DNA of 35,275 nucleotides from Pseudomonadota bacterium (GTDB lineage Bacteria > Pseudomonadota > Gammaproteobacteria > Burkholderiales > Rhodocyclaceae): positions 1-35,275 of the forward strand of contig JAFEDI010000127.1 of assembly GCA_018241725.1 (NCBI GenBank). Reading direction: 5' to 3'. This document shows, piece by piece, positions 12,715-34,522 of the stretch; the first letter of the stretch is position 1, and each line of letters begins with the position of its first letter. A program made the position numbers and the translations under genes. The notes beneath the pieces were generated by a model, which saw only the letters and a list, made by a program, of their open reading frames with translations, was not told the origin of the DNA and did not search any database.

Positions 12715-12716
12715 TT

Positions 12717-12733: not shown

Positions 12734-12735
12734 AA

Positions 12736-13062: not shown

Positions 13063-13071
13063 GGCAATTCC

Positions 13072-14409: not shown

Positions 14410-14633
14410 TGAAATGAATCCATGTCATCGATTGCGAACAACGCGAACGCAATCATAGCCAGGGCGTAAAAAGCTGCGGCAATCCAGTACATACGATTCA
14501 GGGAACAACGCGGAAACGTCTCGCGAAGGACGAGAGTCAGACTGGAGGCAGTTATCTGAATAGACGCCACGAGCACAACGAAAAGCAGAAGTGCGAGGAG
14601 CTGTAAGAACAGAATCAGAAGTTCTTCGAACAT
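14406..14633 (-). CDS. Small two-helix membrane protein of the prophage
   Basis: The 75-residue product consists of two hydrophobic segments (about 4-30, rich in Leu/Val, and about 50-68) joined by a short basic, cysteine-containing turn. AGGTGG lies 8 nt before the ATG, and the stop overlaps the pIII start as ATGA, which argues that it is translated. Most of it overlaps the secreted-protein frame 14425-14769 in another frame. It is probably a minor virion or assembly protein; I recognise no family. Confidence 0.65.
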   Translation of the reverse strand: MFEELLILFLQLLALLLFVVLVASIQITASSLTLVLRETFPRCSLNRMYWIAAAFYALAMIAFALFAIDDMDSFQ

Positions 14634-14769
14634 TTTTGGACCCACCTGAAGACGCCGCTTTGGCCGGTGCAGGAGCCGGCAGCGGCGCATTGTCTTCTTG
14701 AGCCGCCGCCGACTGGCTCAAGAAGAAAGCGGCCACGAGGGCCGCGATCCTGCATGACAAGGATGTCAT
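14425..14769 (-). CDS. Small secreted cysteine-containing phage protein
   Basis: The 114-residue product has a signal peptide (CRIAALVAAFFLSQSAAAQE, cleavage near residue 24). A Pro/Ala linker and a C-terminal domain with four cysteines (CARGVYSDNC, LDC, YDC) follow, suggesting two disulfides in the periplasm or on the virion. Its ATG follows the pVIII stop by 10 nt without a clear Shine-Dalgarno, and a GTG two codons upstream is possible. The C-terminal 70 codons overlap the two-helix membrane protein in another frame, so one of the two could be spurious; the signal peptide and the cysteines make me keep it. Confidence 0.6.
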   Translation of the reverse strand: MTSLSCRIAALVAAFFLSQSAAAQEDNAPLPAPAPAKAASSGGSKNVRRTSDSVLTAPRTSAFRCARGVYSDNCLQSDSRPSRDVSALFPESYVLDCRSFLRPGYDCVRVVRNR

Positions 14770-14779
14770 GCGCACAGCA

Positions 14780-15025
14780 TTACACCTTGGAGGCGCCGCG
14801 CTTGAAGAGGCTGATCAGAACGAAGCCGACGGTGATCGCGCCGACAACCGGCCACACCAGATCGATGAGGGACAGCGCATCGGCCTTGAGGTTGGTGAAA
14901 GCTTCCGTCGCAGCAGTCGGCAGTGCGGCATGCGCCTGCACGGCCACCACCGAGGCACCAGCAGCCACGGCTTGAGCGATACGACGACGGATAGAGCCCT
15001 TCTGGGCGACGTGGGTGGTTTGCAT
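14780..15025 (-). CDS. pVIII-like major coat protein
   Basis: The 81-residue precursor has a basic N-terminus and signal peptide cleaved at or near VQAHA/ALPTA (about residue 33). The predicted mature coat of about 48 residues has an amphipathic acidic start (LPTAATEAFTNLKADALSLI), a membrane helix VWPVVGAITVGFVLISLF and a basic tail KRGASKV. This acidic-hydrophobic-basic order is diagnostic of filamentous phage major coat proteins, whose basic end faces the DNA. GGAG lies 8 nt before the ATG. It is followed after 10 nt by the secreted-protein frame. Confidence 0.9.
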   Translation of the reverse strand: MQTTHVAQKGSIRRRIAQAVAAGASVVAVQAHAALPTAATEAFTNLKADALSLIDLVWPVVGAITVGFVLISLFKRGASKV

Positions 15026-15113
15026 TTCATTTGCTCCTAAGTGAGCCCTTACGGGCGGGTTATCGGCTGTCTGCTCCCGTCACGGCCGGCCCGGCGGGCC
15101 GTCCATTCCGGGA

Positions 15114-15233
15114 TCACACAGCCTGGTCGGCAAGGCGCCGAAAAAGTCTGACCAAGTAGCCAGCGCAGAAGCCAACGGCCCAGGCGCCCAGGTACAGGCC
15201 TATCAGTTCGGGGGTGTCGGTGATGTCAGTCAT
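15114..15233 (-). CDS. pIX-like 39-residue membrane protein
   Basis: The product begins MTDITDTPELIGLYLGAWAV, continues with FCAGYLVRLFRRLADQAV and has a single membrane helix at about 10-28 with a basic C-terminus. The ATG overlaps the previous stop as ATGA. Position just before the major coat gene, size and hydropathy match the pVII/pIX minor proteins found at one end of the filament. Sequence similarity cannot be judged at this length. Confidence 0.65.
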   Translation of the reverse strand: MTDITDTPELIGLYLGAWAVGFCAGYLVRLFRRLADQAV

Positions 15234-15304
15234 GACCAGAGCCCCGAGAGGTAGCCGGCGGCGAACGCCAGCACCAGAAAACCGGCGTGGAGGTAGGCTT
15301 CCAT
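15230..15304 (-). CDS. pVII-like 24-residue membrane peptide
   Basis: This is a 24-residue peptide with a single hydrophobic helix (HAGFLVLAFAAGYLSGLW). Its ATG shares one base with the rep stop (TGATG) and its own stop overlaps the next start (ATGA), so it sits in a tightly coupled series. The location corresponds to gene VII in Ff-type phages. It is too short for a confident family call. Confidence 0.55.
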   Translation of the reverse strand: MEAYLHAGFLVLAFAAGYLSGLWS

Positions 15305-16335
15305 CAGGCAACGGCCCTCAGTTCCGCCCAGGAACGAACCGGCTGAGCGATGCAGATTTCGCGGCGGCGGAACGGCAGGACGTTGCCAGCGCCGATGTCG
15401 GCGTCGGAGAGGCCGGCGGCACGGAGGTATTTCAGGTGCAAGAACCACGTGGCACGCGGCATCGATTCGCGGGCCAGCTCATAACCAATCGCCTTGATCA
15501 TGGCCCAGGTGCGATGCGCGGCCAGTGCGCGCCCTTTGGTCGGAGCGACCTTTTCGAGTTCTTCCAAGAGCATGCCCATGTCCGTGACCTCCTGCTTTCC
15601 GATGAATCGTTCGAAATACTGTTCGTGCTGTTTCTGCAGTTCTTCGGTGGTGAGATCCCACCAGTTGCGACCCTCTTCAGCCAGCCGGCGGAACCAGCGG
15701 GCGCCGAGAGTCAGTTCCAAACGGGCAAGGCGGTCGGCCAGCTCGAGGAGATCGTCAGATATCTCGGCTTTGCGATCATTGACCAGCTTGCGGAGCTGAT
15801 CGCCCTTGCCGTAGCCCTTGCCCTTGCGCAGGTCCGAGCCCTTGTTCCAATAGACGCTATCGCCTCCCCCGCTGGTCGCTTTGGCGCGGCCGGCATCGGC
15901 GGTAATGAGCTGCCGAAGGAACTGCTTCACCTCGCGCTTGCTGGAGAGGGCATAGTTCTCGGTGAAGTCAATCCGGCGGCATTCCCATTCGTGGGCTGGC
16001 GGCAAGATCGACGCGAGGCACTTGGAGGCGAAGCGCGTCAAGACGCCCGCACACTCGCGGACCTCGGAAGAGCCAAAAACGTTGTTGCCGTAGGTGATGA
16101 AGGCCGGTGAGGCGCCGATGGTCAAACGCATCTCACCATCGGCGCCGCCGGTGACGGTCCAGCACAGGCCAGGCGTATCGGAGCGCAGCGCATCGAGATC
16201 CAGAACGGGTTTTTCCCAGCGGATTTCGCCGTCAGGCGACACGCAGGTGATGCGGCCGAGGGCGGACAAGACACGATCCTGAATGGCGGGCGGCAGCTTC
16301 GCCAAGGGATAACGGAGGGTCATCCAGTCAATCAT
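15304..16335 (-). CDS. Phage replication initiation protein (gpII-like Rep)
   Basis: The 343-residue product resembles the inovirus/plasmid replication initiators that nick the double-stranded origin to start rolling-circle replication. Features include an aromatic and charged N-terminal domain (MIDWMTLRYPLAKLPPAIQD), a central RRIDFTENYALSS block, a GGGDSVYWNKGSD loop and RLELTLGARWFRRLAE with conserved acidic and basic positions. Internal Met codons near MGMLLEELEK could give a shorter gpX-like product. The ATG follows the preceding gene's TGA directly (TGAATG). It is the largest gene of the replication module. Confidence 0.85.
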   Translation of the reverse strand: MIDWMTLRYPLAKLPPAIQDRVLSALGRITCVSPDGEIRWEKPVLDLDALRSDTPGLCWTVTGGADGEMRLTIGASPAFITYGNNVFGSSEVRECAGVLTRFASKCLASILPPAHEWECRRIDFTENYALSSKREVKQFLRQLITADAGRAKATSGGGDSVYWNKGSDLRKGKGYGKGDQLRKLVNDRKAEISDDLLELADRLARLELTLGARWFRRLAEEGRNWWDLTTEELQKQHEQYFERFIGKQEVTDMGMLLEELEKVAPTKGRALAAHRTWAMIKAIGYELARESMPRATWFLHLKYLRAAGLSDADIGAGNVLPFRRREICIAQPVRSWAELRAVA

Positions 16336-18432: not shown

Positions 18433-18464
18433 ACCCCTGGCCATTGCCGGGGGTTTTTGTTTTG
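18433..18464 (+). terminator. Intrinsic terminator upstream of rtcB
   Basis: A 9-bp GC-rich stem with one G-U pair and a CATT tetraloop (18433-18454) is followed by TTTTGTTTT on the plus strand. It precedes rtcB by about 70 nt and would end a short leader transcript. Confidence 0.7.
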
Positions 18465-18531
18465 GGCTTCCCTTTCCGTCCCGGATTCCATGAAGAGCGG
18501 CAAAGCCGCTGCAAGAAATTCAGGAATCACC

Positions 18532-19740
18532 ATGGGCATACAAATTGAGTTGAAGAAAAGTCGCGTGCCTGTCAAGGTCTGGACGCGCGACATTGATCCG
18601 GAAGCAATCCAGCAACTGCTGAACGTTGCTTCATTGCCGATCGTGCATGGCCATGTGGCCGCCATGCCGGACGTACATGCAGGTATCGGCGCCACCGTCG
18701 GTAGCGTCATTCCTACGCTACGCGCCATCATCCCTGCCGCAGTCGGCGTCGACATCGGCTGCGGCATGAACGCCGTGCGTACTTCGCTGATCGCCAGTGA
18801 GCTTCCGGATAACCTGCGCGGCCTGCGGCTGGGCATCGAAAGCGCAGTACCGGTCGGTTTCAACCAGCACGCGGCCAGTCGCATGCGTGGAAGTGCGCTG
18901 CAACGCGTCGGACGGGTGCTGAACGACCGGCTGGATGTGGTCGTCGGCAAGCATCCGGGGCTGATGAAGATGCAGCGCCGCTTCAACGAGACCTGGCTCT
19001 GCCAGATCGGCACGCTGGGTGGCGGCAATCACTTCATCGAGTTGTGCCTCGACGAGGCGGACCGGGTGTGGATCATGTTGCACTCAGGCTCGCGCGGCAT
19101 TGGCAATGTGCTGGGGCGCTATTTCATCGCCGCGGCACAGAAGGACATGCTGCGGCATCAGATTCATCTGCCAGACCAGGACCTCGCCTATTTTTCCGAA
19201 GGCTCGGACCTGTTCGACGACTACGTCGAGGCCGTCGAATGGGCGCAGGACTACGCGCTGCTGAACCGTAACCGGATGATGGCGGCGATCATCGAGGCTT
19301 TGAAGCCGCTTTTGCCACCTTTCAGGCTTGAAGACGAAGCGATCAATTGCCACCACAACTACGTGGCGCGGGAGGAACACCTCGGGGAACGCCTTTTCAT
19401 CACTCGCAAGGGCGCCATCTCGGCCCAGGCTGGAGAATTGGGCATCATCCCCGGCAGCATGGGGACAAGGTCCTACATCGTCCGTGGGCTGGGCAATGCC
19501 GAGTCATTTTGCTCGTGTTCCCATGGTGCAGGCCGACGGATGAGCCGCAGTGCGGCCAAGCGCCGATTTAGTCGCTTCGACCTCGAGGCGCAGACTGCCG
19601 GCGTCGAGTGTCGGAAGGACGGCGGCGTGGTCGATGAGATTCCCTCCGCCTACAAGGACATCGACCAGGTGATGGACAACCAGCGCGATCTGGTGGAGGT
19701 CGTCCATGGACTGAAACAGATCCTTTGCGTGAAAGGATAA
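18532..19740 (+). CDS. rtcB: RNA-splicing ligase RtcB
   Basis: The 402-residue enzyme matches RtcB (about 400 residues), which joins RNA 2',3'-cyclic phosphate or 3'-phosphate ends to 5'-OH ends using GTP and Mn2+. Visible family motifs are AAVGVDIGCGMNAV (metal-binding Cys at about 81), TLGGGNHFIEL, MLHSGSRGIG, CHHNYV, IPGSMGTRSYIV and the C-terminal SHGAGRRMSRSAAK, which carries the histidine that accepts GMP. The ATG at 18532 is preferred because MGIQIELKK matches the short N-terminus of the family; an ATG 14 codons upstream is also open. It is followed without gap by a small gene. Confidence 0.95.
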   Translation: MGIQIELKKSRVPVKVWTRDIDPEAIQQLLNVASLPIVHGHVAAMPDVHAGIGATVGSVIPTLRAIIPAAVGVDIGCGMNAVRTSLIASELPDNLRGLRLGIESAVPVGFNQHAASRMRGSALQRVGRVLNDRLDVVVGKHPGLMKMQRRFNETWLCQIGTLGGGNHFIELCLDEADRVWIMLHSGSRGIGNVLGRYFIAAAQKDMLRHQIHLPDQDLAYFSEGSDLFDDYVEAVEWAQDYALLNRNRMMAAIIEALKPLLPPFRLEDEAINCHHNYVAREEHLGERLFITRKGAISAQAGELGIIPGSMGTRSYIVRGLGNAESFCSCSHGAGRRMSRSAAKRRFSRFDLEAQTAGVECRKDGGVVDEIPSAYKDIDQVMDNQRDLVEVVHGLKQILCVKG

Positions 19741-19938
19741 ATGATGGCGACCAAGAAGACCCTCCTCATCCTGCCCCAGACCAAGCCGCGCAATCCCTTG
19801 CTGGTGCCGGGCCTGATGCGCCGCGCTGGCCCGCACGGCAAGACACGCAAAGCCGTTCGCCAGCAGATGCGGCAACGTACCCAGCAAGCCATCGCCGCTC
19901 TGTTGAACGGCGACAAAACGGAATTCGAAATCGACTGA
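19741..19938 (+). CDS. Small basic protein in the rtcB operon
   Basis: The 65-residue product starts directly after the rtcB TAA (TAAATG); a second ATG is the next codon. It is strongly basic in the middle (RRAGPHGKTRKAVRQQMRQR) and ends acidic (NGDKTEFEID). No membrane segment is present. Such composition would suit RNA binding or interaction with RtcB substrates, but I recognise no family and this is inference from position and charge only. Confidence 0.65.
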   Translation: MMATKKTLLILPQTKPRNPLLVPGLMRRAGPHGKTRKAVRQQMRQRTQQAIAALLNGDKTEFEID

Positions 19939-19983
19939 CCCTGCCTGCTCCACCTCGGAGCGGCCTTCTTGAAGGAGAAAACC

Positions 19984-20061
19984 ATGAAACCATCTATTGC
20001 TGAAGACAGGGAGGTTCAGCACCTTCTGCGGCAGTATCCAGAGGCGAGTTCTTTTGCTTGA
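19984..20061 (+). CDS. 25-residue reading frame with strong ribosome binding site
   Basis: GAAGGAG lies 6 nt before an ATG that opens a frame of only 25 codons (begins MKPSIAEDREVQHLLRQYPE). The strong initiation region and the abrupt end suggest either a short peptide or the N-terminus of a gene since deleted. It follows the small basic gene by 45 nt. Confidence 0.35.
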   Translation: MKPSIAEDREVQHLLRQYPEASSFA

Positions 20062-20106
20062 GCCCGACAGGGTCAGTAGCCGGTGATTGACCCGGTATCC
20101 TGACGA

Positions 20107-21150
20107 TTACGCGTTTTGTTTCTTGAGCTGGCCGATTTCGGCCAGCGCTTCAGCCAGCAGGGTTTCTGCACGTTGGGCGCGTGCGGTTTCTGCAAGGCGC
20201 ACTTCATCGATGACACGTGCCCTGGTTTCGGCGGCGGCTACCGCGGACTCCTTGCCGTGTGCGGCTTCGGTTGCAACCTTGAGCTGTGCCTGCAGGCGTT
20301 CGATCCGGCCTTCCGCGGCGGCCAGGGATGTTTCGATCTGACGCGTCTTGGACAAGGCTTCGCGCAGCGCCGCCTTGGCTTCCTCGGTCTGCTCACGCAG
20401 CTTGCTTTCGCGCTCCTCCCGGTTGGCAAGTTGCTGGCGCATTGCCGTGATGTCGCCGAGCTTTTCCTGACGGACCTGATCGATCTGCTTGACCAGCAGT
20501 TCGCGCTCGAGTGCGCTGCGATCCTGTTCATCCTTCAAGGACGTGCTGTAACGATCACGATCGGTCTGCAGCATTTTGGTCAGCCGTTCGGATTCCGCGG
20601 CAAACTTCTGCTCGCGAACCTCTGCCGCATCCTCGAGCTGCTTGATCCGGCCATCCTGCACATCCTTCTGGCGCTGGGACTCCTGCACCTGCTGTCGCAG
20701 TTCTGCGATCGTTGCATCGCGGACGCGTTGTGCCTCGTTCAGGGCTTCGAGTTGTGCGGCTGCCTGCACCGCGGCGGCATCCTGTTGTTCGATTCGCTGC
20801 TCGGCGGCCAGCAGACGAACCCGATAAGCGTCCTGCTCCTGCTCCAGCGCCTGACGCTGGGCTGCAAAGAGTTGCTCCGCGTGATTGAGCGCCAGGGACC
20901 AGATCCGGGACATGAAGCCGTCCGCTGAAGAAACCAGTTCATCCGGCATGCCTGGGACGCTGCGCTTCCGGAAGAAGGTCGCGCCGGTCTCACGACGCCA
21001 TTGGTCGATATAGCGCTGAACAACCTCGCTGGATCCCTTGTTGCCAAGCTCGGCATAGACAAGGTTGAACGACGGGTTTTCGCCTTGGGCGAGCAATTGA
21101 AAGCAGATTTGCTCGACGGCTTCGAAGTTGACGCTGCTGCTGCGTGCCAT
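20107..21150 (-). CDS. KfrA-like DNA-binding coiled-coil protein
   Basis: The 347-residue product has an N-terminal KfrA-type domain of about 100 residues (VEQICFQLLAQGENPSFNLV, then GNKGSSEVVQRYIDQWRR, a helix-turn-helix layout). A very long charged coiled coil (about 115-340, rich in Glu, Gln, Arg, Ala) follows. Plasmid KfrA proteins bind their own promoter and help partition or nucleoid organisation; chromosomal relatives are common in betaproteobacteria and poorly understood. GGAGGGG lies 8 nt before the ATG at 21150. A 22-bp palindrome about 75 bp upstream is a candidate operator. I see no plasmid partition genes nearby. Confidence 0.85.
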   Translation of the reverse strand: MARSSSVNFEAVEQICFQLLAQGENPSFNLVYAELGNKGSSEVVQRYIDQWRRETGATFFRKRSVPGMPDELVSSADGFMSRIWSLALNHAEQLFAAQRQALEQEQDAYRVRLLAAEQRIEQQDAAAVQAAAQLEALNEAQRVRDATIAELRQQVQESQRQKDVQDGRIKQLEDAAEVREQKFAAESERLTKMLQTDRDRYSTSLKDEQDRSALERELLVKQIDQVRQEKLGDITAMRQQLANREERESKLREQTEEAKAALREALSKTRQIETSLAAAEGRIERLQAQLKVATEAAHGKESAVAAAETRARVIDEVRLAETARAQRAETLLAEALAEIGQLKKQNA

Positions 21151-21223
21151 GGACTGTTCCCCTCCGCACAAACACGACTGAATATAGAGATGGTCTGGAA
21201 GATAACATACGTTTAAATCCGGT

Positions 21224-22107: not shown

Positions 22108-23772
22108 CTAGCGGAAATCCTTATGGTTCAGCTTGTATTTGCTCAGACGCAATCCGAGGATCCTGCGGGTCAGCCCCAGCTGGATAGCCGCCTCCGTCGT
22201 ATTGCCGTGACTGGCTTTCAGAGCATCCACGATCATCTCGTACTCGATCGCATTGAGTTTGGCGTCCAGGGAGCCGAGCATCGAAGACTCGGAAACTACC
22301 GGCGTCTGCAGCGAGGGCGGCAGGTTATAGCCGTGGATCACGCCGTCCTCAGCAAGGATGATTGCCCGCTCGACGACGTTTTCCAGTTCCCGCACATTGC
22401 CCGGCCAATGGTAGCTCAGCAGCATGTTGATCGCTGGGGTGGAAATGCGCTGGATGTCGACACCCATTCCACGGGAAAACTTGGATACGAAATGGTCGGC
22501 CAGGGCGACGACGTCGTTGCCCCGTTCGCGCAGTGGCGGAATGGTGATCGGGAAGACATTGAGCCGGTAATACAGGTCTTCGCGGAACGTACCCTTCGTG
22601 ACCATCTCGACGAGATCCCGGTTGGTGGCCGCCAGGATCCGGATGTCCACGCTGATCGGCACATTGCCACCGACCCGTTCGAAGGTCTTTTCCTGCAGGA
22701 CCCGCAACAGCTTGGCCTGCATCGGCAACGACAGTTCGCCGACTTCGTCGAGGAAGATCGTGCCGCCGTCGGCCTCTTCGAAGCGCCCTTTGCGCTGGCT
22801 CGCCGCGCCTGTGAACGAGCCCTTCTCGTGGCCGAACAGCTCGCTCTCTATGACGCTTTCGGGCAGTGCCGCACAATTGAACTTGATGAAGGGGCCGGAT
22901 GAGTTCGGGCTGTTGTAATGGATGGCACTGGCCACCAGTTCCTTGCCGACGCCGCTTTCGCCGAGAATCAGGACCGTCGTCTTGGAGCGCGTGATGCGCT
23001 CGATCATCCGGTAAACCTCTTTCATCGGCTTCGAATTGCCAATGATGTTGGCCGGCTTGAATTTTTCCTTGAGGGCGGTGCGCAGCCGTTGATTCTCGTC
23101 CTCCAGCGCCACCTTCTTGACGTTCTCGAGCAGGTACAACTCGACGGCCTGGGCCGTGGTGGCGGCCAGGATGGACAGAACTTCAACGTCCAGCTTCAGC
23201 AGCCGGCGGTTGTCGTAGATCCGCTCCGCGCTGATCGTGCCCATGACCTTCTTGCCACGCAGAATCGGCACGCACAGGAAGGACAAGCGGGTGTCGCCGA
23301 TGTTGCTGCGGCTGCCGGTACGGTTCAGGAAATTCGGTTCGTCGCTGATCTTCGGCACGACAATGGGCTGTCCGGTCTCCACCACCCGGCCGGTGATGCC
23401 CTCCCCGAGGCGGTAGATGCCCCTCGCCTCCTCCTCCTCCGTCAGGCCGAAACTCTCGTGGATGAATATCTTGCCAGAGTCCGTGTCGTAGAGGCTCACC
23501 ATGCCGCGGATCACCTTCATGTGACGCTTCATCAACTGCAGCAGGATGTTGAGGATCTGCGAGAGATTGCCCGTCTCGGTGACGATCCGGCTGATCTCAT
23601 ATAGCAGCGGCAGCAGGTCGGTACGGCATTCTCCGAGGTTGCATTCGCACAGATGGGGTAGCACGTCCCGGTCCGCAAAGTCCGATATGCCGGGCGACAG
23701 CTTTGCGGTGCTGCCGGCCGGTTTCGCTTCGGACCCGATGCCGGATCCCTTTTCGACCACACGATCACTCAT
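22108..23772 (-). CDS. vnfA: VnfA, sigma-54-dependent activator of vanadium nitrogenase
   Basis: The 554-residue activator has an N-terminal Cys motif C-x-C-x4-C (Cys42, Cys44, Cys49, in LCECNLGECRTD), a GAF domain (about 55-215), and an AAA+ domain. The latter has Walker A GESGVGKE at about 271-278, the sigma-54 contact loop GSFTGA at about 318-323 and Walker B TIFLDE. A C-terminal Fis-type helix-turn-helix (TEAAIQLGLTRRILGLRLSKY) follows. A. vinelandii VnfA carries the same Cys spacing near its N-terminus, reported to hold an Fe-S cluster that senses redox state. The second ATG (23772) is chosen because AAGGAG lies 7 nt upstream of it and only 1 nt from the first ATG. Assignment to VnfA, not AnfA or NifA, rests on the Cys motif and the vnf context. 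Confidence 0.9.
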   Translation of the reverse strand: MSDRVVEKGSGIGSEAKPAGSTAKLSPGISDFADRDVLPHLCECNLGECRTDLLPLLYEISRIVTETGNLSQILNILLQLMKRHMKVIRGMVSLYDTDSGKIFIHESFGLTEEEEARGIYRLGEGITGRVVETGQPIVVPKISDEPNFLNRTGSRSNIGDTRLSFLCVPILRGKKVMGTISAERIYDNRRLLKLDVEVLSILAATTAQAVELYLLENVKKVALEDENQRLRTALKEKFKPANIIGNSKPMKEVYRMIERITRSKTTVLILGESGVGKELVASAIHYNSPNSSGPFIKFNCAALPESVIESELFGHEKGSFTGAASQRKGRFEEADGGTIFLDEVGELSLPMQAKLLRVLQEKTFERVGGNVPISVDIRILAATNRDLVEMVTKGTFREDLYYRLNVFPITIPPLRERGNDVVALADHFVSKFSRGMGVDIQRISTPAINMLLSYHWPGNVRELENVVERAIILAEDGVIHGYNLPPSLQTPVVSESSMLGSLDAKLNAIEYEMIVDALKASHGNTTEAAIQLGLTRRILGLRLSKYKLNHKDFR

Positions 23773-23932
23773 TTCCATGCTCCTTCACTGTCCATTCGTG
23801 AACAGGGCGAAAACGCCATCGCAGCACTCGGTGCTCCAGCGTTACGGGCTATCGGGCCAAATCAAAATATAAGCAAGTATATAGCGCTGACTGCTCATCA
23901 TTCATGGATAACCATTATTACGATATGGCTAT

Positions 23933-24211
23933 CTAGTCGATGGGGACAGGCACGATACGGACCGGTTCGTTCAGGGCTGCCATCAATTCGCGCCGGACGC
24001 CGCCCAGAGTCTGGCCGGCCAGCGTGCAGCTGACACAGGCTCCGGACAGGCGGACACGGACGAACAGGCCGTCCACTGCAATCAACTCTATGTCGCCGCC
24101 GTCTTTCTGCAGGCGGGGGCGAACACTCTGGATCGTTTCGGCAATCAGCTTCAGGCGCGCTTCGTCGCTGGAGGCTGTAGTAGGTGCGTCCGTGGAAAAT
24201 TCGGTAGTCAT
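23933..24211 (-). CDS. NifU-like (Nfu-domain) Fe-S scaffold protein
   Basis: The 92-residue product is a single NifU C-terminal (Nfu) domain: IRPRLQKDGGDIELI-type start (here VRPRLQKDGGDIEL, about 30-43) and the cluster-binding C-x2-C as GACVSCTLAG (Cys59, Cys62). Such proteins carry a transient [4Fe-4S] cluster to target apoproteins, here plausibly vanadium nitrogenase components or NifB-type enzymes. A vnfU gene is known in A. vinelandii, and this could be its counterpart. A -24/-12 promoter lies 36 nt upstream of the start and vnfA follows 160 nt downstream, so the two may share a transcript. No clear Shine-Dalgarno precedes the ATG. Confidence 0.85.
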   Translation of the reverse strand: MTTEFSTDAPTTASSDEARLKLIAETIQSVRPRLQKDGGDIELIAVDGLFVRVRLSGACVSCTLAGQTLGGVRRELMAALNEPVRIVPVPID

Positions 24212-24363: not shown

Positions 24364-24377
24364 GTACCGCAGCGTAC
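24364..24377. promoter_or_regulatory. VnfA-type site, perfect GTAC-N6-GTAC
   Basis: GTACCGCAGCGTAC has both half-sites intact. It lies 102 bp upstream of the NifU-like gene's promoter and 245 bp upstream of the importer operon's promoter, so it could serve both. Confidence 0.7.
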
Positions 24378-24478
24378 GCGACCGATATTGCATCGCACAA
24401 GAAAGAACGGTCGCCCTCTTTGCGAATGGGGCATCGAGCGGCGTCGAAACGTCCCTTTCCGTTCATCTCGCCCGGAAC

Positions 24479-24492
24479 GTACTTTCCCGAAC
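24479..24492. promoter_or_regulatory. VnfA-type site, GTAC-N6-GAAC
   Basis: GTACTTTCCCGAAC has the second half-site type that I recall from one of the A. vinelandii vnfE upstream sites. It lies 130 bp upstream of the importer operon's sigma-54 promoter. Confidence 0.65.
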
Positions 24493-24621
24493 CCCACCGG
24501 CATGCGCCCCGGACCCAGTCCGTTCCCCCGCCGTATCCTGCGTGCAGCAAGGCTTGCGAGCCTGTGGCCACAGCGATCCTGGGCACATCACTGCAACAGG
24601 GCGCCAGGCCGGCTGCTCCCT

Positions 24622-24637
24622 TGGCATAGCGCTTGCC
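24622..24637 (+). promoter_or_regulatory. Sigma-54 promoter of the Phn-type importer operon
   Basis: TGGCATAGCGCTTGCC has the -24 GG and -12 GC at the right spacing and a full TTGC; only two -24 flanking bases and the last base differ from consensus. The first gene's ATG is 61 nt downstream. Confidence 0.75.
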
Positions 24638-24697
24638 ATTTCCTCCCCATATGGCAGCCGCACTGTGCTGTCTGCCAAGTCCAGCGGGAGTTCCACC

Positions 24698-25564
24698 ATG
24701 ACCAGTCTTGTTGTCGGATCCGCCTTCATCTCGCGCCTGTGTTCAGTGCTGTCCCCACGGCGCAAGCCCCTCCTTCCCTCCCGTGCCATGGCTGCCGATG
24801 GGGCCACGGTGGGTGGGCTGTGCCTGGAGCATGTCACCGTCCAGCGCGGGCAGAGATGCATCCTCACAGACGTTTCCATGCCGATCCGGGAAGGCGGTGT
24901 GACCGCTATTGTCGGCCCGTCCGGTGCAGGCAAAACGACCCTGCTCGGCGTGCTTAACGGCCTCATCCGGCCGACGGCCGGGCAGGTCGTGCTGAACGGA
25001 ATGGGCTGCCTGTCGTCGCCGGAAACATTGCAGATCCACAGACGGCGGACTGCCACGGTGTTCCAGGAACACGCCCTGATCGATCGCATCAGCGCCCTCG
25101 ACAACGTATTGCTCGGCCTAGCCGACCGCCGTCATCCCCTCAGCCCCCTGCCCTGGCCGGCCGAGCTTCAGGAACAGGCCGCCGCTGCTCTGCAGGAAGT
25201 CGGTCTGTTGCCCCACGCTCATGCTCGCGCGGCGAATCTCAGCGGCGGCGAGCGCCAGCGTGTCGGCATCGCCCGTGCCATGGTGCGGCAGCCGCGCCTG
25301 CTGCTCGGTGACGAACCCTTCTCGGCGCTGGACCCCGGGCTTGCAGCATCGCTCGGCAGCCTGCTCAAGGGATATGCACAGGCTTCGGGCGTCACCGTCG
25401 TGCTCGTCTTGCACCAGTTGGACATGGCCCGCCGCCTGGCCGATCGCATCGTCGGATTGCGGGATGGCCGGGTCTGCTTCGATGGCCCGGCGTCGGATTT
25501 CGACCTCGCCGTGCAGCAACACCTCTTTGCATCCACGCCTTCCCTTTCCGGAGAACCGACATGA
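24698..25564 (+). CDS. PhnC-type ABC transporter ATPase, putative vanadate importer
   Basis: The 288-residue ATPase has Walker A GPSGAGKT (73-80), Q-loop Gln123 in VFQEHALID, signature LSGGE (181-185), Walker B LLLGDEP (201-207) and the H-loop LHQLD. The ALIDRISALDNVLLG region is typical of the PhnC group (phosphonate/phosphite importers). It would power the permease encoded two genes downstream. The ATG at 24698 has GGGAG 7 nt upstream; it gives an N-terminal extension of about 35 residues over usual PhnC, and Met31 is an alternative. The stop overlaps the next start as ATGA. The sigma-54 promoter and VnfA-type sites point to vanadate and not phosphonate as substrate; this is inference. Confidence 0.88.
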   Translation: MTSLVVGSAFISRLCSVLSPRRKPLLPSRAMAADGATVGGLCLEHVTVQRGQRCILTDVSMPIREGGVTAIVGPSGAGKTTLLGVLNGLIRPTAGQVVLNGMGCLSSPETLQIHRRRTATVFQEHALIDRISALDNVLLGLADRRHPLSPLPWPAELQEQAAAALQEVGLLPHAHARAANLSGGERQRVGIARAMVRQPRLLLGDEPFSALDPGLAASLGSLLKGYAQASGVTVVLVLHQLDMARRLADRIVGLRDGRVCFDGPASDFDLAVQQHLFASTPSLSGEPT

Positions 25565-26451
25565 TCAAGCTCGCTCAAGGGGCGCGTCTTCTTTGCGCCT
25601 TCATCCTTATTTGCATCGGCATTTCCGCTGGCGCCGCCGAAACCGCCGCACGGCCCGACAAGCTGGTGCTCGGCCTGCTGCCAGGCGAATCCGCACCCAC
25701 CGTGATGCGCCTGAACGAAGCCCTGCGGGCCCACCTCGAAAAACGCCTAGGCCTGCCTGTGGAGCTGATGGTCGGCGCGAGCTACGCTGCCACCGGCGAG
25801 GCCTTGCGCTTCGGGCGTATTGACATCGCCTATCTTGGGCCCGTCACCTACATCCTGCAAAGTCGGCGGGCCAAGCTGGAGCCGTTCGCCCGGCCCTCCC
25901 ACCCGCAGGTTGGCCCGTCCTTCCAGGCCGTGATCATCGTCCCGCAGGACAGCCCCGCCCACGTGCTCGCCGACCTCAAGGGCAAGGACATCGCTTTCGG
26001 CGACCCAGCCTCGACCTCGGGCACATGGGTGCCGCGTTACCAGTTGCTGGACTCCGGTCTGGTGGCCGGGCGCGACTACACCTTGCGCGTTCTCGGTGCC
26101 CACGATGCGGTCGCATTGGCGGTGGCGAACAAGCAGGTTGCCGCCGGCGGCCTGTCCCTGCCGATCTATCAGCGCCTGTTGAAGGAAGGACGTATCGACG
26201 CTGGACGCGTGCGCATCCTGGCGGAGTCCCCGGCGATTCCCGAATACATGTGGACCTTCCGTGAGGGCCTCCCTCCTGCCCTGAAGGACGAGATTCGCCA
26301 GGCATTCCTTGACATGCACGACGGTGCGGCCCTGGCAGTGTTCCGGGCCGAGGCCTTCGTACCGGCCGCGGATGGCGATGTGGACAAAGTCCGCGGCTGG
26401 ATCGAGGCGATCCGGAAGAGTTCTCCCGACGCTGTGCCCGCCGCCCGCTGA
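25561..26451 (+). CDS. PhnD-type periplasmic binding protein, putative vanadate-binding
   Basis: The 296-residue product has a signal peptide (LLCAFILICIGISAGAAE, cleavage near residue 26) and a PhnD-type periplasmic fold: LVLGLLPGESAPTVMRLNEA, GRIDIAYLGPVTYILQ, FQAVIIVPQDS, ADLKGKDIAFGDPASTSGTW and PEYMWTFREGLPPALK. The STSG loop and the YLGP segment are the parts that contact the phosphonate in known PhnD proteins. It would deliver ligand to the permease downstream. It is a close paralogue of the protein at 27298-28194. No phosphonate lyase or phosphite dehydrogenase genes accompany the operon. Confidence 0.88.
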   Translation: MIKLAQGARLLCAFILICIGISAGAAETAARPDKLVLGLLPGESAPTVMRLNEALRAHLEKRLGLPVELMVGASYAATGEALRFGRIDIAYLGPVTYILQSRRAKLEPFARPSHPQVGPSFQAVIIVPQDSPAHVLADLKGKDIAFGDPASTSGTWVPRYQLLDSGLVAGRDYTLRVLGAHDAVALAVANKQVAAGGLSLPIYQRLLKEGRIDAGRVRILAESPAIPEYMWTFREGLPPALKDEIRQAFLDMHDGAALAVFRAEAFVPAADGDVDKVRGWIEAIRKSSPDAVPAAR

Positions 26452-26455
26452 CATC

Positions 26456-27301
26456 ATGCAGCCCAATCGCCCAACTCCGCTCCGGGACGTCGATCCGGCC
26501 ATCGAAGCCGTGCTGTGCTGCGGCCACCAGCAACACCGGCGCAGGCTGCTCCTTGCCAGCCTGCTGGCTTGCACCGTCGTGCTACTGGCGGTGTTCGGTG
26601 GCGCCTTCGACCTGCCCCGTTATCGCGACACGCTGCCCACCATCGTCCAACTGTTGGGGGACGCCTGCCCGCCAGATTTCAGCCGCTGGCCCCGGTGGGG
26701 ACGCCCCTTGCTGGATACCTTGAGCATGAGCGTCGTCGGCACCTGCTTCGGCCTGATCGTGGCCATCCCGCTGGGCGCGCTGGCGGCCCGCAACATTGCA
26801 CCGAGCTGGCTGGGCAGCCCTGTGCGTCTGGCGCTCAACGCCATTCGCTCCATTCCGGGGTTGGTGTGGGGAATCATGTTCGTCGCCGCGGTGGGTTTCG
26901 GCCCGCTACCCGGTATCCTGGCCCTCGCCAGCCACTCAACGGGCATGCTCGGCAAATTCTGCGCCGAGATCCTCGAGCACGTGGACGCCGCACCCGGCAA
27001 CGCGCTGCGCGCCCAGGGCGTTTCGCCGCTGGGCGTGCTGCGTTTCTCGGTGCTACCGCAGATCCTGCCGCGCCTCGTGGACGTCACGCTGTACCGCTGG
27101 GAGCACAACCTCCGCGCTGCCACGACCCTGGGCGTCGTCGGCGCCGGCGGGATCGGGCTGGAGATCGTCACCGCCTTCCATCTCTTCGAATACCAGGAGG
27201 CCAGCGCGCTGATCCTGCTGTTGCTCGGCCTGGTTTCGGTGATCAATGTCCTTGGCGGCCGCCTGCGCCGCCATTTCGTCGACGGACTCGCGCAGCCATG
27301 A
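26456..27301 (+). CDS. PhnE-type ABC transporter permease
   Basis: The 281-residue inner-membrane protein has about six hydrophobic segments (first at about 36-56) and the permease EAA-like loop in NALRAQGVSPLGVLRFSVLP. The stretches TLSMSVVGTCFGLIVAIPLGALAARN and GVVGAGGIGLEI are typical of PhnE. It begins 4 nt after the PhnD stop and its own stop overlaps the next start as ATGA. It would form the homodimeric channel for the ATPase at 24698. Substrate assignment follows the whole operon. Confidence 0.88.
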   Translation: MQPNRPTPLRDVDPAIEAVLCCGHQQHRRRLLLASLLACTVVLLAVFGGAFDLPRYRDTLPTIVQLLGDACPPDFSRWPRWGRPLLDTLSMSVVGTCFGLIVAIPLGALAARNIAPSWLGSPVRLALNAIRSIPGLVWGIMFVAAVGFGPLPGILALASHSTGMLGKFCAEILEHVDAAPGNALRAQGVSPLGVLRFSVLPQILPRLVDVTLYRWEHNLRAATTLGVVGAGGIGLEIVTAFHLFEYQEASALILLLLGLVSVINVLGGRLRRHFVDGLAQP

Positions 27302-28194
27302 GCACACCCCTGCGCTGTGGCCTGCTGCCAGGTGAGTCGCCTCCCGTCGTGCTGACCCGCAATGCGCCGCTGAAAGCCTATCTGGAGGAGCAGCTGGCAA
27401 TGCCGGTCGAGCTGATCGTCGGTGAAACCTATTCCGCCACCGGCGAGGCGCTGCGTGCCGGCCGGCTCGACATCGCCTATCTGGGCCCCGTCACCTACAT
27501 CCTGCAGAGCCGCAAGGCCGAGCTGGAACCCTTCGCGCGGCCGACGCACGGCGGCAGCACCGGCCCAACCTTCCAGGCCGTCATTGTCGTCCCCCATGCC
27601 AGCCCCGCCACCTGCCTCTACGACCTGCGGGGCAAGGAGATCGCGCTGGGCGACCTGGCCTCCACGTCCGGCAGCTGGGTGCCCCGCCACCTGCTGCTGG
27701 AGGCGGGGCTGGTCGCCGAGCGGGATTACCGCAGGCGGCACTTCGGCGGCCACGACCAGGTGGCCAGCGCCGTAGCGGAAATGCGCGTCCCGGCCGGCGG
27801 CATGAGCAGGGAGGTTTATACGCGGCTGCTCGGCGAGGGGGGCATCGCGCCGGGCAGCCTGCGGGTGCTGGCTACATCCCGGCCGATCCCCGAATACATG
27901 TGGACCTTCCGCGCCGGGCTCGACCCTTATCTGAAGGAAGACCTGCGCCAGGCCTTCGTCCGTCTGCGCCTGCCCGCACCCTTACGCGCCTATCGCGCCG
28001 ACGCCTTCATCCCGGCCGTGGATGCAGACGTGGACCGGGTTCGCCAGTGGATGGAGGACATCCTGCAGGCGCGCCTCATCCCCGGCAGTCTGCCGCTGGC
28101 CTTCAGCGAGCCCGGCCTGAATGCGCGGGCCGCCTCCCCTTTCACCCATCCCTTCACCAATGCTTCACAGCCGGAGATCAATCCATGTCCGTAG
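27298..28194 (+). CDS. Second PhnD-like protein without signal peptide (cytoplasmic)
   Basis: The 298-residue product begins MSTPLRCGLLPGESPPVVLT, that is, directly at the first strand of the PhnD fold with no signal peptide. It keeps the ligand-region blocks GRLDIAYLGPVTYILQ, FQAVIVVPHAS, LASTSGSWVPRH and PEYMWTFRAGLDP seen in its neighbour. Its start overlaps the permease stop as ATGA, so a missed upstream signal sequence is unlikely. A binding protein held in the cytoplasm cannot serve import; storage, delivery to cofactor synthesis, or sensing of the oxyanion are possible. Its last 3 codons overlap the Nif11 gene. The C-terminal tail of about 30 residues is extra and Pro/Ala-rich. Confidence 0.85.
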   Translation: MSTPLRCGLLPGESPPVVLTRNAPLKAYLEEQLAMPVELIVGETYSATGEALRAGRLDIAYLGPVTYILQSRKAELEPFARPTHGGSTGPTFQAVIVVPHASPATCLYDLRGKEIALGDLASTSGSWVPRHLLLEAGLVAERDYRRRHFGGHDQVASAVAEMRVPAGGMSREVYTRLLGEGGIAPGSLRVLATSRPIPEYMWTFRAGLDPYLKEDLRQAFVRLRLPAPLRAYRADAFIPAVDADVDRVRQWMEDILQARLIPGSLPLAFSEPGLNARAASPFTHPFTNASQPEINPCP

Positions 28195-28382
28195 AGTCCG
28201 CCGTGTCCTATATCCGCCGCATGCGTTCCGACGCCGACTTCCGCGAGGCCGTGCAGGCCCTGTCCGAGGATGAGCCCGCCTCCTGGGCCTTCCTGAAGGA
28301 AAGCGGCTATGCCTTCTCGATGGAGGAGTTCCGCCTCGCCCAGGACGAGATCTACAAGGAGTACGGCATTACGCCGATGTAG
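28185..28382 (+). CDS. Nif11-domain protein
   Basis: The 65-residue product begins MSVESAVSYIRRMRSDADFR and continues with a WAFLKESGYAFSMEEFRLAQ segment. Both are hallmarks of the Nif11 domain, found in nitrogen fixers and as leader segments of some peptide precursors. No Gly-Gly cleavage site or core peptide follows, so this is the stand-alone nitrogen-fixer type, whose function is unknown. GGAG lies 8 nt before the ATG, inside the upstream gene, and the frames overlap by 10 nt. It ends the importer operon; a long hairpin follows. Confidence 0.85.
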   Translation: MSVESAVSYIRRMRSDADFREAVQALSEDEPASWAFLKESGYAFSMEEFRLAQDEIYKEYGITPM

Positions 28383-28410
28383 CCTGCCGTCGCTGCGCCC
28401 AAGCCGGGGG

Positions 28411-28460
28411 CAGCAATGCCAAGGGCCCGCTCCGGGAGGAACGGGCCCTTGGCATTGCTG
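28411..28460. terminator. 19-bp perfect hairpin between convergent operons
   Basis: CAGCAATGCCAAGGGCCCG (28411-28429) pairs perfectly with 28442-28460 around a 12-nt loop. It lies 28 nt after the Nif11 stop and 22 nt after the stop of the last vnf-operon gene. It lacks T tracts, so it may stop both transcripts or protect their 3' ends. Confidence 0.75.
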
Positions 28461-28482
28461 GCTTCACAAATACTGGAGGACG

Positions 28483-28719
28483 TCAGCGCGGCGGCGTGCC
28501 GAACAGGGTCACTTCCAGCTCCAGCACCGCCTTCACCACTTCGCCATGGCGTTCGTCCGAGGTCGAGGCATCGCCCAGGCCGGCACGTTCCATCCATACG
28601 CGCGCCTGCTCCAGGGTTTGCCGCGCCTCCCTTTCCGCCTGGGCCAGCAGCGTCATGCTGCCGAACTTGCGGGCGCCCTTCAGGCGATTGATTGCATTCT
28701 GCAGACCACGGGTCTTCAT
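28483..28719 (-). CDS. Small helical protein, last gene of the vnfDGK operon
   Basis: The 78-residue product begins MKTRGLQNAINRLKGARKFG, is predicted largely helical, basic at the start and acidic later, with no Cys motif or membrane segment. GAGGAG lies 6 nt before the ATG, which itself is 10 nt after the previous stop. I do not recognise the family. Position at the end of the vnf operon suggests a role in vanadium nitrogenase assembly or stability, which is inference only. Confidence 0.75.
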   Translation of the reverse strand: MKTRGLQNAINRLKGARKFGSMTLLAQAEREARQTLEQARVWMERAGLGDASTSDERHGEVVKAVLELEVTLFGTPPR

Positions 28720-28729
28720 CGTCGTCTCC

Positions 28730-29203
28730 TCAGCAGGTTTCCGCGTATTCGGCCGGCGCCTCGACGCCCAGCGCGCGACGCATCCACAAGGGCGGACGCT
28801 CCAGCATGCGCTGCACGTATTCGACAACCTCGGTGATGTCCCGGCTGTTCTCCATCTTCACCGGATATACGCCCATGTTCTTGACCGTTACCGCGTGCAG
28901 ATCGGACAAGCCCTTGCTGAACAAGATCGCGCAGCCGCGTACCGCCTCGATGCGGGCCGTCATGTGCTCCGCGCTGGCGCCGCCACTCGGGTCGCCCATC
29001 GAACAGCCCATGCCGCCGCCGGGCCCCTTGCTGCCATTGCCCTTGCCGGCAGCCGCGCCGCGGAACTGGATGCTGTCGACGAACTCGCCGCCCTGCAGGC
29101 CGACTTCATAGATGACAAGCTGCCGCGCCGCGGCGAAGTTGGCATTGACCTGCAGCAGATCGTTGGTGGCGATGGCGATCCTGAGCAAACCGTTCTTTTC
29201 CAT
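28730..29203 (-). CDS. NifX-like nitrogenase cofactor-binding protein
   Basis: The 157-residue product shows the dinitrogenase cofactor-binding fold: LLRIAIATNDLLQVNANFAAARQLVIYEVG at the start (first strand, loop, then VIYEV) and, after a Gly/Ser/Met-rich insertion (about 48-75), ARIEAVRGCAILFSKGLSDL and a GVYPVKM segment. NifX/VnfX and NafY proteins bind FeMo-co, FeV-co or precursors. The usual His of the DQHF-type loop is replaced (NANF), so ligand binding may differ. AGGAG lies 7 nt before the ATG. It lies in the vnfDGK operon, 38 nt after the unknown gene upstream. Confidence 0.78.
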   Translation of the reverse strand: MEKNGLLRIAIATNDLLQVNANFAAARQLVIYEVGLQGGEFVDSIQFRGAAAGKGNGSKGPGGGMGCSMGDPSGGASAEHMTARIEAVRGCAILFSKGLSDLHAVTVKNMGVYPVKMENSRDITEVVEYVQRMLERPPLWMRRALGVEAPAEYAETC

Positions 29204-29241
29204 GATGCGCTCCTAGAAGTTGGGGACGATGTGGGATCGGG

Positions 29242-30135
29242 TCAGGTCATCGGCAGGCCGACGACGTTCACTTCGCGTCCGAAGCGGGCCCGGAAGCGCT
29301 CCGGCAGGTGCACGCCATCCGCCATGCGGGCGCGCCACAGGGGTAGCCGGTTCAGGGCCAGCCGACCTTCCTTGAGCGCCTCCACGGGGATGATGTGCAG
29401 CACGTTGTCGAAGACGAGGTAGAAATCCACCGGATAGCGCGCCGGGTCGGCAAAGCGCTTGCCGATCTCGATGCACAGCTGCTCCCCGTCGATGCGGAAG
29501 CCCGGGTTGTCGTTGTCGAAACGGAAATGCCGGTTCATCGGCAGGGTCTGGTTGAACTGGTAGAGGATGCGGTCCTCATCGTTGAAGCCCTTGATCTCCG
29601 CGACGATGTCGGTGAAGTACTGGGCCAGCATGGCCTCGACGTAGGCCTGCCCATGGGGCTGGTTGAAGGAGTCGAGGTAGAACAGCACGAAGGATTCGAG
29701 CAGTTCCAGCCCCATCGTGCTCAGCGTGATGAACTGGGCGCAGCGCCCATGCACGCAACGGATGCGCACCAGGCCGTCGTCCAGTTCGATGTGGCCATCC
29801 GGCAAGGCCCAGGCCAGGTGGCAGACGCGCAGGATGCGATAGACCTCCGCCACGACCTTGTCGAGCCCGCTGCGGCGCGGTAGCGCCAGGTATTTCTTCC
29901 AACTGGGAAGGTCTTCAATGTCCGGATGGGCGGAGGTCAGCAAGCCTTCGAGCAGCGAGAAGGCCATCTCGGTGGCCAGCAGCCCGGGCAGCTGGATCGG
30001 GGCGTCGGGCTCGGACGTGCCGAAGGAGAGCTTCTTCTTCTTGCTGCAGAACTCCACCTGGCGATACTCGGGCAGGTGGTGGCGGCGGCCAAAACAGGCG
30101 GCGAAGTCCTTCGCCAGATCGTCGTGCGAGAGCAT
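29242..30135 (-). CDS. Unrecognised protein encoded directly after vnfK
   Basis: The 297-residue soluble product has no signal peptide. It starts MLSHDDLAKDFAACFGRRHH and contains a basic run SKKKKLSFG (about 31-39), a helical region, and alternating strands near FYLVFDNVLHIIPVEAL. Cysteines are few (FC near 29, RVC and IRCVHGRCA near 100-130), with a C-x5-C in RCVHGRCA. The ATG at 30135 has GGAG 8 nt upstream, and the gene begins 106 nt after vnfK. I do not recognise the family. Its place inside the vnf operon suggests a dedicated role in vanadium nitrogenase maturation or control. Confidence 0.78.
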   Translation of the reverse strand: MLSHDDLAKDFAACFGRRHHLPEYRQVEFCSKKKKLSFGTSEPDAPIQLPGLLATEMAFSLLEGLLTSAHPDIEDLPSWKKYLALPRRSGLDKVVAEVYRILRVCHLAWALPDGHIELDDGLVRIRCVHGRCAQFITLSTMGLELLESFVLFYLDSFNQPHGQAYVEAMLAQYFTDIVAEIKGFNDEDRILYQFNQTLPMNRHFRFDNDNPGFRIDGEQLCIEIGKRFADPARYPVDFYLVFDNVLHIIPVEALKEGRLALNRLPLWRARMADGVHLPERFRARFGREVNVVGLPMT

Positions 30136-30241
30136 GGGGGCGTCTCCGCGGTGGGTTGAGGGCGGAAACGGGGCGTAGCCCCGTTCCGTTCCAGCCGGCT
30201 CCGCCTGCACGGAACCGGCGCCTGACAAGGCCGTGGCTGGA

Positions 30242-33544
<3,303 letters not shown>

Positions 33545-33811: not shown

Positions 33812-34522
33812 CTATTGCAGGCTCGATCCGCAATGGATGGCCAGCGGGCGTGGCCGCTCGAGCCTTCCGGCTTTCACGAGCCAGGGCGGCGGCGTGCCCT
33901 GCAGGACCAACTGGATCTGATCCAGGGCCCAGGGCGCGTCCATCGGGCTCCCATAACCCAGCGGATGGACGCCGAGGCGCATGAGGCGCGCCGCATTGGA
34001 TGTGCCCACGCCGACGGTCAGCAGCAGATGGCAATCGGCAATGCACTCCGCCCGCCATCGGTTCCCGTCGTCGGCGGCCTTGGCGGCCGCCGTTCCGCGC
34101 ACGTCGATCAGCCGCCTTTCCGTCGCGCTCAACTGGAAGATCAGGAAACGCAGGCAGGCGTTGAAGAAGCCGTCCAGCTGCAGCCCCGAGTCGGACGCAA
34201 TGGCGATGCGGATGGAGCCTGGCATGTCGCCATCCTCATAGCGCTGGATCGGCGGAATCGTGGTGTCGATGATGTTCACGGTAGCCCGGTCCGCCAGAAA
34301 GGCCAGCGCCTCCCGCAGCTGCGGCCGCGGCAGCTGCTGCAGTCGTCCGCCTGGTGCGGCCCGCAATTGCGCCACTGTCAGCGAGCGGAGCTTGCGGTCG
34401 GTCAGCGGAAATCCCAGTAGCGCGATCAGGGTTTGAACCACGTCGGCCACTGGCACCCCCGGTAACGCGCGGGCCGCCAGGCCGATGCGCAGCGCGAGCT
34501 CCGCCGAAAGTCTGGACGTCAT
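33812..34522 (-). CDS. vnfY: NafY-type cofactor-binding protein, VnfY candidate
   Basis: The 236-residue protein has the two-domain NafY layout. An N-terminal helical domain (about 1-80) is followed by a NifX-type cofactor-binding domain (about 103-222) starting SIRIAIASDSGLQLDG and ending APWALDQIQLVLQGTPPPWL. NafY is 243 residues. In A. vinelandii, VnfY is a NafY relative needed for full vanadium nitrogenase activity. The NafY His121 motif (DGHF, from memory) is DGFF here, with Phe119 in place of the His. The start 9 nt after the ferredoxin stop has no strong Shine-Dalgarno; the gene is probably cotranscribed with vnfH and the ferredoxin. Confidence 0.8.
   Translation of the reverse strand: MTSRLSAELALRIGLAARALPGVPVADVVQTLIALLGFPLTDRKLRSLTVAQLRAAPGGRLQQLPRPQLREALAFLADRATVNIIDTTIPPIQRYEDGDMPGSIRIAIASDSGLQLDGFFNACLRFLIFQLSATERRLIDVRGTAAAKAADDGNRWRAECIADCHLLLTVGVGTSNAARLMRLGVHPLGYGSPMDAPWALDQIQLVLQGTPPPWLVKAGRLERPRPLAIHCGSSLQ

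Follow-up and report, generated by a model that had tools for sequence, protein, structure and literature searches.

High-affinity vanadate binding has been shown for RPA1385, a PhnD-family protein encoded in the vnf cluster of Rhodopseudomonas palustris (PMC3223731), and vanadate uptake was suggested for a phosphonate-type transporter encoded behind vnfDGK in the genome paper of Azotobacter chroococcum (PMC4465626). In Azotobacter vinelandii the importer genes are named vodABC (Avin_02540-02560), and a leaderless VodA paralog coupled to vnfA3, Avin_47110, was named VnfZ and described as a regulator of VnfA paralogs (PMC9542535; VnfZ is also treated in the review PMC13102585). How VnfA1 senses vanadium (V) is described as currently unknown (PMC9542535). 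Here, homologues of these genes were analyzed in a contig of 35,275 nt (JAFEDI010000127.1, the whole of which is referred to as the window) from a Rhodocyclaceae genome (GCA_018241725.1), where they form a five-gene operon, vodC-vodA-vodB-vnfZ-nif11, at 24698-28382 on the + strand. The importer is of an already described kind, while the packaging of vnfZ into the importer operon is a new arrangement involving a recently described regulator. The reading favored here, and considered probable, is that a single operon under VnfA control yields both an importer and an intracellular vanadate sensor, and that this sensor acts on the organism's one VnfA.

High-affinity vanadate transport is also known from Anabaena variabilis, an earlier case that is treated as having a separate origin (PMC3223731). 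The original prediction had read the window operon as a PhnCDE-type vanadate importer and had asked whether a Phn-type vanadium system was already described; RPA1385 and vodABC provide such precedents (PMC3223731, PMC9542535), and these homologues, together with the vnf-linked genomics presented below, support the importer reading by analogy. The likeness to the RPA1385 system is that of a PhnD-family protein in a vnf cluster, not of compared sequences. With VodABC the window shares the same three components. In A. vinelandii CA (locus L013) the PhnC, D1, E and Nif11 genes lie behind vnfDGK and follow it in the same direction, D1 being 70% identical to its window counterpart, whereas the window vodCAB genes face vnfDGK, have their own putative VnfA/σ54 promoter and hold vnfZ inside their operon. 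VnfZ of A. vinelandii is likewise a leaderless VodA paralog of the same clade (represented by an A. vinelandii CA sequence in locus L142), but its gene is coupled to vnfA3 and that genome has an AnfD match; vnfZ of the window is instead coupled to vodB, and only one VnfA-type activator and no match to AnfD were found in the source genome. The A. variabilis transporter mentioned above is taken here to be VupABC.

Operon layout and control region

Family support was obtained for all five genes, bearing out the PhnC-PhnD-PhnE-PhnD2-Nif11 order originally predicted. PhnC, the ATPase VodC (24698-25564, +, with an ambiguous start at 24698 or 24788), matches PF00005 and has TIGR02315 as its best NCBIfam match, below cut-off. 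PhnD1, the predicted periplasmic binding protein VodA (25561-26451, +), matches PF12974, scores above the TIGR01098 cut-off and carries a signal peptide; PhnE, the permease VodB (26456-27301, +), scores above the TIGR01097 cut-off. PhnD2, or VnfZ (27298-28194, +), matches PF12974 and, above cut-off, TIGR01098, and is 61% identical to PhnD1. The last gene encodes a Nif11-domain protein of 65 aa (28185-28382, +; TIGR03798 and PF07862 above cut-offs). Successive genes are joined by a 4-nt overlap, a 4-nt gap, a 4-nt overlap (ATGA, in which the PhnD2 start codon overlaps the PhnE stop) and a 10-nt overlap, and because of these tight junctions the five genes are regarded by layout as one transcription unit. 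The PhnC-PhnD-PhnE-type trio is linked to vnf genes, as in VodABC: vnfK (30242-31666), vnfG (31719-32063) and vnfD (32060-33484), each above the cut-off of its NCBIfam equivalog and all on the - strand, are convergent with the importer operon, so that the claim that it faces vnfDGK was also confirmed.

Upstream of vodC lie two VnfA-type sites and a σ54 promoter, as had been proposed. Site 1, GTACCGCAGCGTAC (24364-24377), is a perfect GTAC-N6-GTAC palindrome and the sole exact match to that pattern in the window; the relaxed pattern GTAC-N6-GTWC has four matches against 0.40 expected, two of the four being this palindrome. Site 2, GTACTTTCCCGAAC (24479-24492), reads GTAC-N6-GAAC and on the opposite strand fits the published VnfA1 motif, GT(T/A)C-N6-GTAC, which occurs mostly in pairs upstream of σ54 promoters (PMC9542535). 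The -24/-12 element, TGGCATAGCGCTTGC (24622-24636, +), matches TGGC-N7-TTGC; by itself this box is weak evidence, since the window contains eight such matches with 2.11 expected. All three elements persist in the close relative L009, where the -24/-12 block is invariant, the spacer of site 2 is altered and spacers and flanks have otherwise changed. The combination of GT(T/A)C-N6-GTAC sites with a downstream σ54 promoter is that of the VnfA regulon, and VnfA binding is predicted on this basis.

Among the vnf loci, 25 have a vodC match, and in six of these VnfA-type sites lie within 500 bp upstream of vodC, nine sites in total, compared with about 0.3 expected (the sum over the 25 loci of single-base shuffles made per locus). 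Sites accompany vodC in four of the eight loci where the gene does not run with vnfDGK, versus two of the 17 where it does; in the latter orientation vodC probably shares the vnfDGK transcript.

VodA-type proteins and VnfZ in vnf genomes

The distribution of the importer genes was surveyed from vnfD, the best 80 of 108 confirmed loci being kept. Forty-eight of these are proteobacterial by record title (L009-L054, L061 and L072). A distinct set of 48 genomes was searched whole (those of L009-L055 minus L047, plus L060 and L061); L047 (by title the same bin as L039) and L072 were left out of it, as were the remaining non-proteobacterial loci. Within the fetched flanks, a VodA-type gene is present in 26 of the 48 proteobacterial loci (a D1 match was printed for 27, but the match of L053 is a VnfZ), and C, D and E are all present in 23, so that linkage of Phn-type operons with vnfDGK in other genomes, for which the original prediction had suggested a search, was found. 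Neither PhnC nor D1 was matched, at the thresholds used, in the flanks of the 32 non-proteobacterial loci; a D1-type gene does lie about 12 kb from vnfD in a Myxococcales genome, G047. In the whole-genome set, 41 of 48 genomes have a PhnD2 match at 1e-60, and VodA sequences for tree building came from 37 of 48, plus one second match in G024 that was left unplaced.

Two draws of genomes served for comparison. Among 398 genomes drawn from the phylum, the source genome included, only the source genome has a PhnD1 match above 47% identity, and no VnfD match at 1e-110 was found in the five other genomes with a weaker PhnD1 match; the same VnfD query matched 48 of the 48 vnfD genomes. Among 200 genomes drawn from the order, again with the source genome, there are seven other matches at 1e-50, all 40-42% identical. 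In a maximum-likelihood tree PhnD1 groups with the binding proteins of vnf genomes, 56 VodA and VnfZ sequences separating from seven outgroup sequences with 100/100 support. Since it is frequent in vnfD genomes and no match above 47% occurs in the 397 others drawn, the VodA-type PhnD protein is, as far as sampled, a marker of V-nitrogenase genomes.

PhnD2 is not a second part of the importer, for the protein is leaderless, which the original prediction had missed, and groups with the regulator VnfZ. Leaders were judged from a hydrophobic stretch before the mature start and not by a dedicated signal-peptide program. All 38 VodA sequences, PhnD1 among them, have such a stretch within the upstream 49 residues, with a peak of at least 2.08, the leader expected of an exported protein; in all 18 VnfZ sequences the upstream peak is at most 1.83 and a start codon is found 7-14 residues ahead of the motif LLPGES. 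A role as second importer protein was ruled out by the missing leader in 18 of 18 sequences. An upstream start that would add a leader to PhnD2 was likewise rejected: the only in-frame start codon within 70 residues is 8 residues before LLPGES, and any start further upstream would fall inside phnE.

The 18 VnfZ sequences form one clade (100/100), in which PhnD2 of the window and its relative branch first and the other 16 are supported at 94/85; branches in this tree are long, that of the window pair included, which leaves the branching order unsure. The clade includes a leaderless sequence from A. vinelandii CA, encoded at 4.78 Mb next to a VnfA paralog. We identify it as VnfZ (Avin_47110) from where it lies, from the VnfA paralog beside it and from its lack of a leader, not from a locus tag. 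A VnfZ was identified in the source genome and in 17 of 48 vnfD genomes, 18 in all. Only in the window and in L009 does vnfZ lie inside the vod operon; elsewhere it stands before vnfA3 or in other places. The literature consulted contained no mention of vnfZ as part of a vod operon, nor of VnfZ occurring where VnfA3 is absent.

The source genome is 100% complete by tool estimate. It encodes one VnfA-type activator, the next VnfA match being 43% identical, and no AnfD-like match was found in it, the next VnfD match being 35% identical. Among the VnfZ genomes, eight have a VnfA-type activator starting within about 0.35 kb behind vnfZ. In a tree of 50 VnfA sequences (L187 was excluded for its short length, and the set leaves out several other VnfA matches) these eight activators, designated VnfA3, and an A. 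vinelandii sequence taken for VnfA2 form a fork of nine, supported at 100/99 and called here the VnfA3 fork; in all eight genomes having VnfA3, it is encoded beside VnfZ. The source VnfA falls outside this fork, and in the source genome vnfZ follows vodB rather than being co-transcribed with vnfA3. VnfA3 was not detected in 10 of the 18 VnfZ genomes, provisionally including G010, where vnfZ lies close to the end of its contig and the search for VnfA at 1e-120 gave no match. Co-transcription with vnfA3 is for this reason not treated as defining VnfZ. AnfD-like matches (56-58% identity) occur in five of the 18 genomes, none being detected in 13. In G048, the sole VnfA found is encoded 0.7 kb behind vnfZ on the same strand, and it too is outside the VnfA3 fork.

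The shared pocket and the proposed circuit

The closest solved structures to the vod-type PhnD proteins are phosphite-binding PtxB proteins, and the PhnD fold appears clear enough from identity to them. Like PtxB (and HtxB), the vod-type proteins belong to this fold family and have the STS-H-Tyr pocket (PMC5700983). The phosphite contacts of Te_PtxB listed in the same source were mapped through the alignment onto the 38 VodA and 18 VnfZ sequences. The equivalents of Y55, S130, T131, S132, H160, S178 and the cap tyrosine Y208 are invariant in 56 of 56. Three positions differ from Te_PtxB: every one of the 56 has F for Y100 and E for Q207, and D22, the cap partner, is G in 52 and T in four. In Pm_PhnD, F replacing Y100 accompanies an acid, D205, that contacts the ligand and precedes the cap tyrosine Y206 (PMC5700983). 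The glutamate at 207 likewise precedes the cap tyrosine and may correspond to D205, a comparison made by analogy since Pm_PhnD was not part of the alignment. As VodA and VnfZ share one modified pocket, they should bind one ligand, and VnfZ would probably bind it inside the cell. From RPA1385 we infer that this ligand is vanadate. This signature, F and E with the cap aspartate lost, could serve as a sequence rule for recognizing PhnD proteins of the vanadate type among those carrying a phosphonate-binder annotation. A further residue, Cys7, is present in 18 of 18 VnfZ and in none of the 38 VodA sequences (which have I, V or L there), and with the missing leader provides a rule for recognizing VnfZ.

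By analogy with A. vinelandii, scarcity of molybdenum (Mo) would lead ModE to release vnfA, and VnfA would then bind the sites at 24364 and 24479 and drive the σ54 promoter at 24622. VodA is predicted to capture vanadate in the periplasm, for import by VodB and VodC. VnfZ, a binding protein that lacks the export signal and keeps the pocket, would bind the incoming vanadate in the cytosol and alter the activity of VnfA, closing a loop of importer, sensor and activator. For A. vinelandii VnfZ, co-precipitation with VnfA3 under Fe-only conditions and two-hybrid contact with VnfA1 have been reported (PMC9542535). If the absences of VnfA3 and AnfD described above are real, this published role, tied to VnfA3 and the Fe-only nitrogenase, cannot be the whole story, and the simplest reading is that VnfZ acts on the primary VnfA. 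A broader proposal is held more tentatively, as somewhat less likely to be right than wrong: that the V-nitrogenase systems of beta- and gammaproteobacteria (the genera being assigned to these classes, by our assumption, from record titles) generally use VnfZ as an intracellular vanadate sensor acting directly on the primary VnfA, the partnership of VnfZ with VnfA3 in Azotobacter being a later specialization after VnfA duplication. Were this so, the source organism would represent the minimal circuit, with importer and sensor expressed from one VnfA-driven operon. With its single VnfA and with VnfZ encoded among the importer genes, this natural genome is free of the paralog redundancy that complicates A. 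vinelandii, and makes vanadium sensing by VnfZ and VnfA testable in a simpler setting.

Several observations weigh against the proposed circuit. A VnfA-type site lies within 500 bp of only six vodC genes out of 25, and of the remaining 19, 15 follow vnfDGK in the same direction; seven of the 48 vnfD genomes have no PhnD2 match at 1e-60, and VnfZ was found in just 17. Three of the 18 genomes with VnfZ (G010, G013 and G044, the last with L053 as its VnfZ-bearing locus) have no VodA match at 1e-60, so sensor and VodABC importer are not always paired. Several VnfZ genomes are drafts or metagenome-assembled genomes, in which missing VnfA3 or AnfD may reflect incompleteness. The equation with Avin_47110 depends on position, the neighboring VnfA paralog and the missing leader, and binding and expression in the source species, like vanadate binding by VnfZ, are argued from homologues. 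A route by which vanadium status reaches VnfA1 through VnfDGK is also considered by the authors of PMC9542535.

The rival explanations are not mutually exclusive. The strongest of them, though unlikely, keeps the importer as proposed and makes VnfZ a cytosolic vanadate buffer or chaperone, carrying vanadium to cofactor assembly and shielding phosphate enzymes, with no regulatory role here. The retained pocket would suit such a function, as would the coupling of vnfZ to the permease gene in the window, its adjoining of that gene in L009 and, in G011, its position directly ahead of a gene that reads by eye as NifH family; the source genome, moreover, has no matches to VnfA3 and AnfD, the known partners in VnfZ regulation. 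It is set against the regulatory phenotypes of A. vinelandii VnfZ and its contacts with VnfA proteins, and against the adjacency of vnfZ to vnfA3 in eight of 18 genomes and its proximity to the sole VnfA in G048. The suggestion that the vanadium-iron (VFe) protein itself informs VnfA of vanadium (PMC9542535), VnfZ having a side role or none here, draws on the cited finding that deletion of vnfDGK lets anfHDGK be expressed with vanadium present (PMC9542535). It leaves unexplained why 18 genomes, of which 10 have no detected VnfA3, keep a VodA paralog that lacks a leader and retains the pocket, and it is considered improbable.

Slightly less probable again is an operon that imports phosphite, phosphate or phosphonate and is merely co-regulated with vnf. 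The curated family names (phosphate, phosphite, phosphonate) and the PtxB structures point that way, but RPA1385 binds vanadate, the clade occurs in vnf genomes and not in the 397 other genomes drawn, and the pocket departs from Te_PtxB at positions 22, 100 and 207. The original claim that phosphonate catabolism genes are absent held for PhnG of carbon-phosphorus lyase, for which the whole source genome has no match (one of 14 control genomes, E. coli, was positive), other phosphonate pathways lying outside the search. This absence weighs against phosphonate use; the genome's other strong PhnD-type system (G000 C4; L204, 4351-7810), with PhnC-like and two PhnE-like genes, has a binding protein that scores above cut-off for a putative selenate type. 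Least probable of all, and very much so, is that PhnD2 has no function of its own, being a degenerate or spare copy of a binding protein. Its 61% identity to VodA and the long branch of the window pair would fit a decaying copy, yet the leaderless form, the pocket and Cys7 are kept across 18 genomes in one clade. The importer with an intracellular sensor acting on the lone VnfA remains the preferred reading.

Nif11 and the surrounding genes

The operon ends with the nif11 gene, as first described; this gene belongs to vnf clusters in general rather than to the importer. Homologues occur in 31 of the 48 proteobacterial vnf loci. Twelve are directly behind vodB, one (L009) is behind vnfZ in the vod operon and 18 are elsewhere, a distribution that weakens the case for an importer part; in many loci with alphaproteobacterial titles the gene lies ahead of vnfD and not behind the importer. 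The proteins of the 31 loci and the window are 64-72 aa long and conserved nearly to the last residues at the C-terminus, and a role as precursor of a ribosomally synthesized and post-translationally modified peptide was rejected, there being no variable core peptide in any of them. The Nif11 protein is conserved and accompanies the vnf genes of proteobacterial loci. Among the literature matches listed, no occurrence of Nif11 paired with vnf or vanadium nitrogenase was found.

Divergent from the operon is a gene for a NifU C-terminal-domain protein (23933-24211, -; PF01106, with a partial match to TIGR02000 below cut-off), which is probably vnfU. Beyond it lies vnfA (22108-23778, -), identified by family searches as a σ54 activator with GAF, AAA+ and Fis-type helix-turn-helix domains and the sole VnfA-type activator found in the genome. 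Between the two, just upstream of vnfA, is a ModE-type site, CGCTATATACTTGCTTATAT (23867-23886, -), with no mismatches to CGNTATATA-N6-TATAT, for which 0.01 matches are expected at up to two mismatches; this pattern is the ModE consensus as we take it to be. The presence of a ModE-type operator here agrees with the Mo repression of vnfUA in A. vinelandii.

A strong hairpin at 28412-28461, its bounds read by eye from the fold, separates the convergent operons and is likely their shared terminator; the fold of 28383-28470 has an energy of -56.5 kcal/mol (z -4.91). Downstream of vnfK, conserved genes occupy 28483-30228 (-). They encode a small MKTRG protein, a NifX-family protein (28730-29203, -) and the product of an open reading frame at 29242-30228 (-) that has no Pfam or NCBIfam match and whose place immediately after vnfK is conserved across many proteobacterial loci. 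A NafY/NifY-like protein with DIMCO_N and Nitro_FeMo-Co domains is encoded at 33812-34522, between the vnfH and vnfD regions. At 11893-16335, near the vnf island, a Zot-domain ATPase gene and a G2P-type replication gene resemble a filamentous-phage (inovirus) provirus. A gene for a KfrA_N plasmid-type DNA-binding protein (20107-21171) lies near an RtcB ligase gene (18457-19740), and this neighborhood (18457-21171) hints at past mobility of the vnf island.

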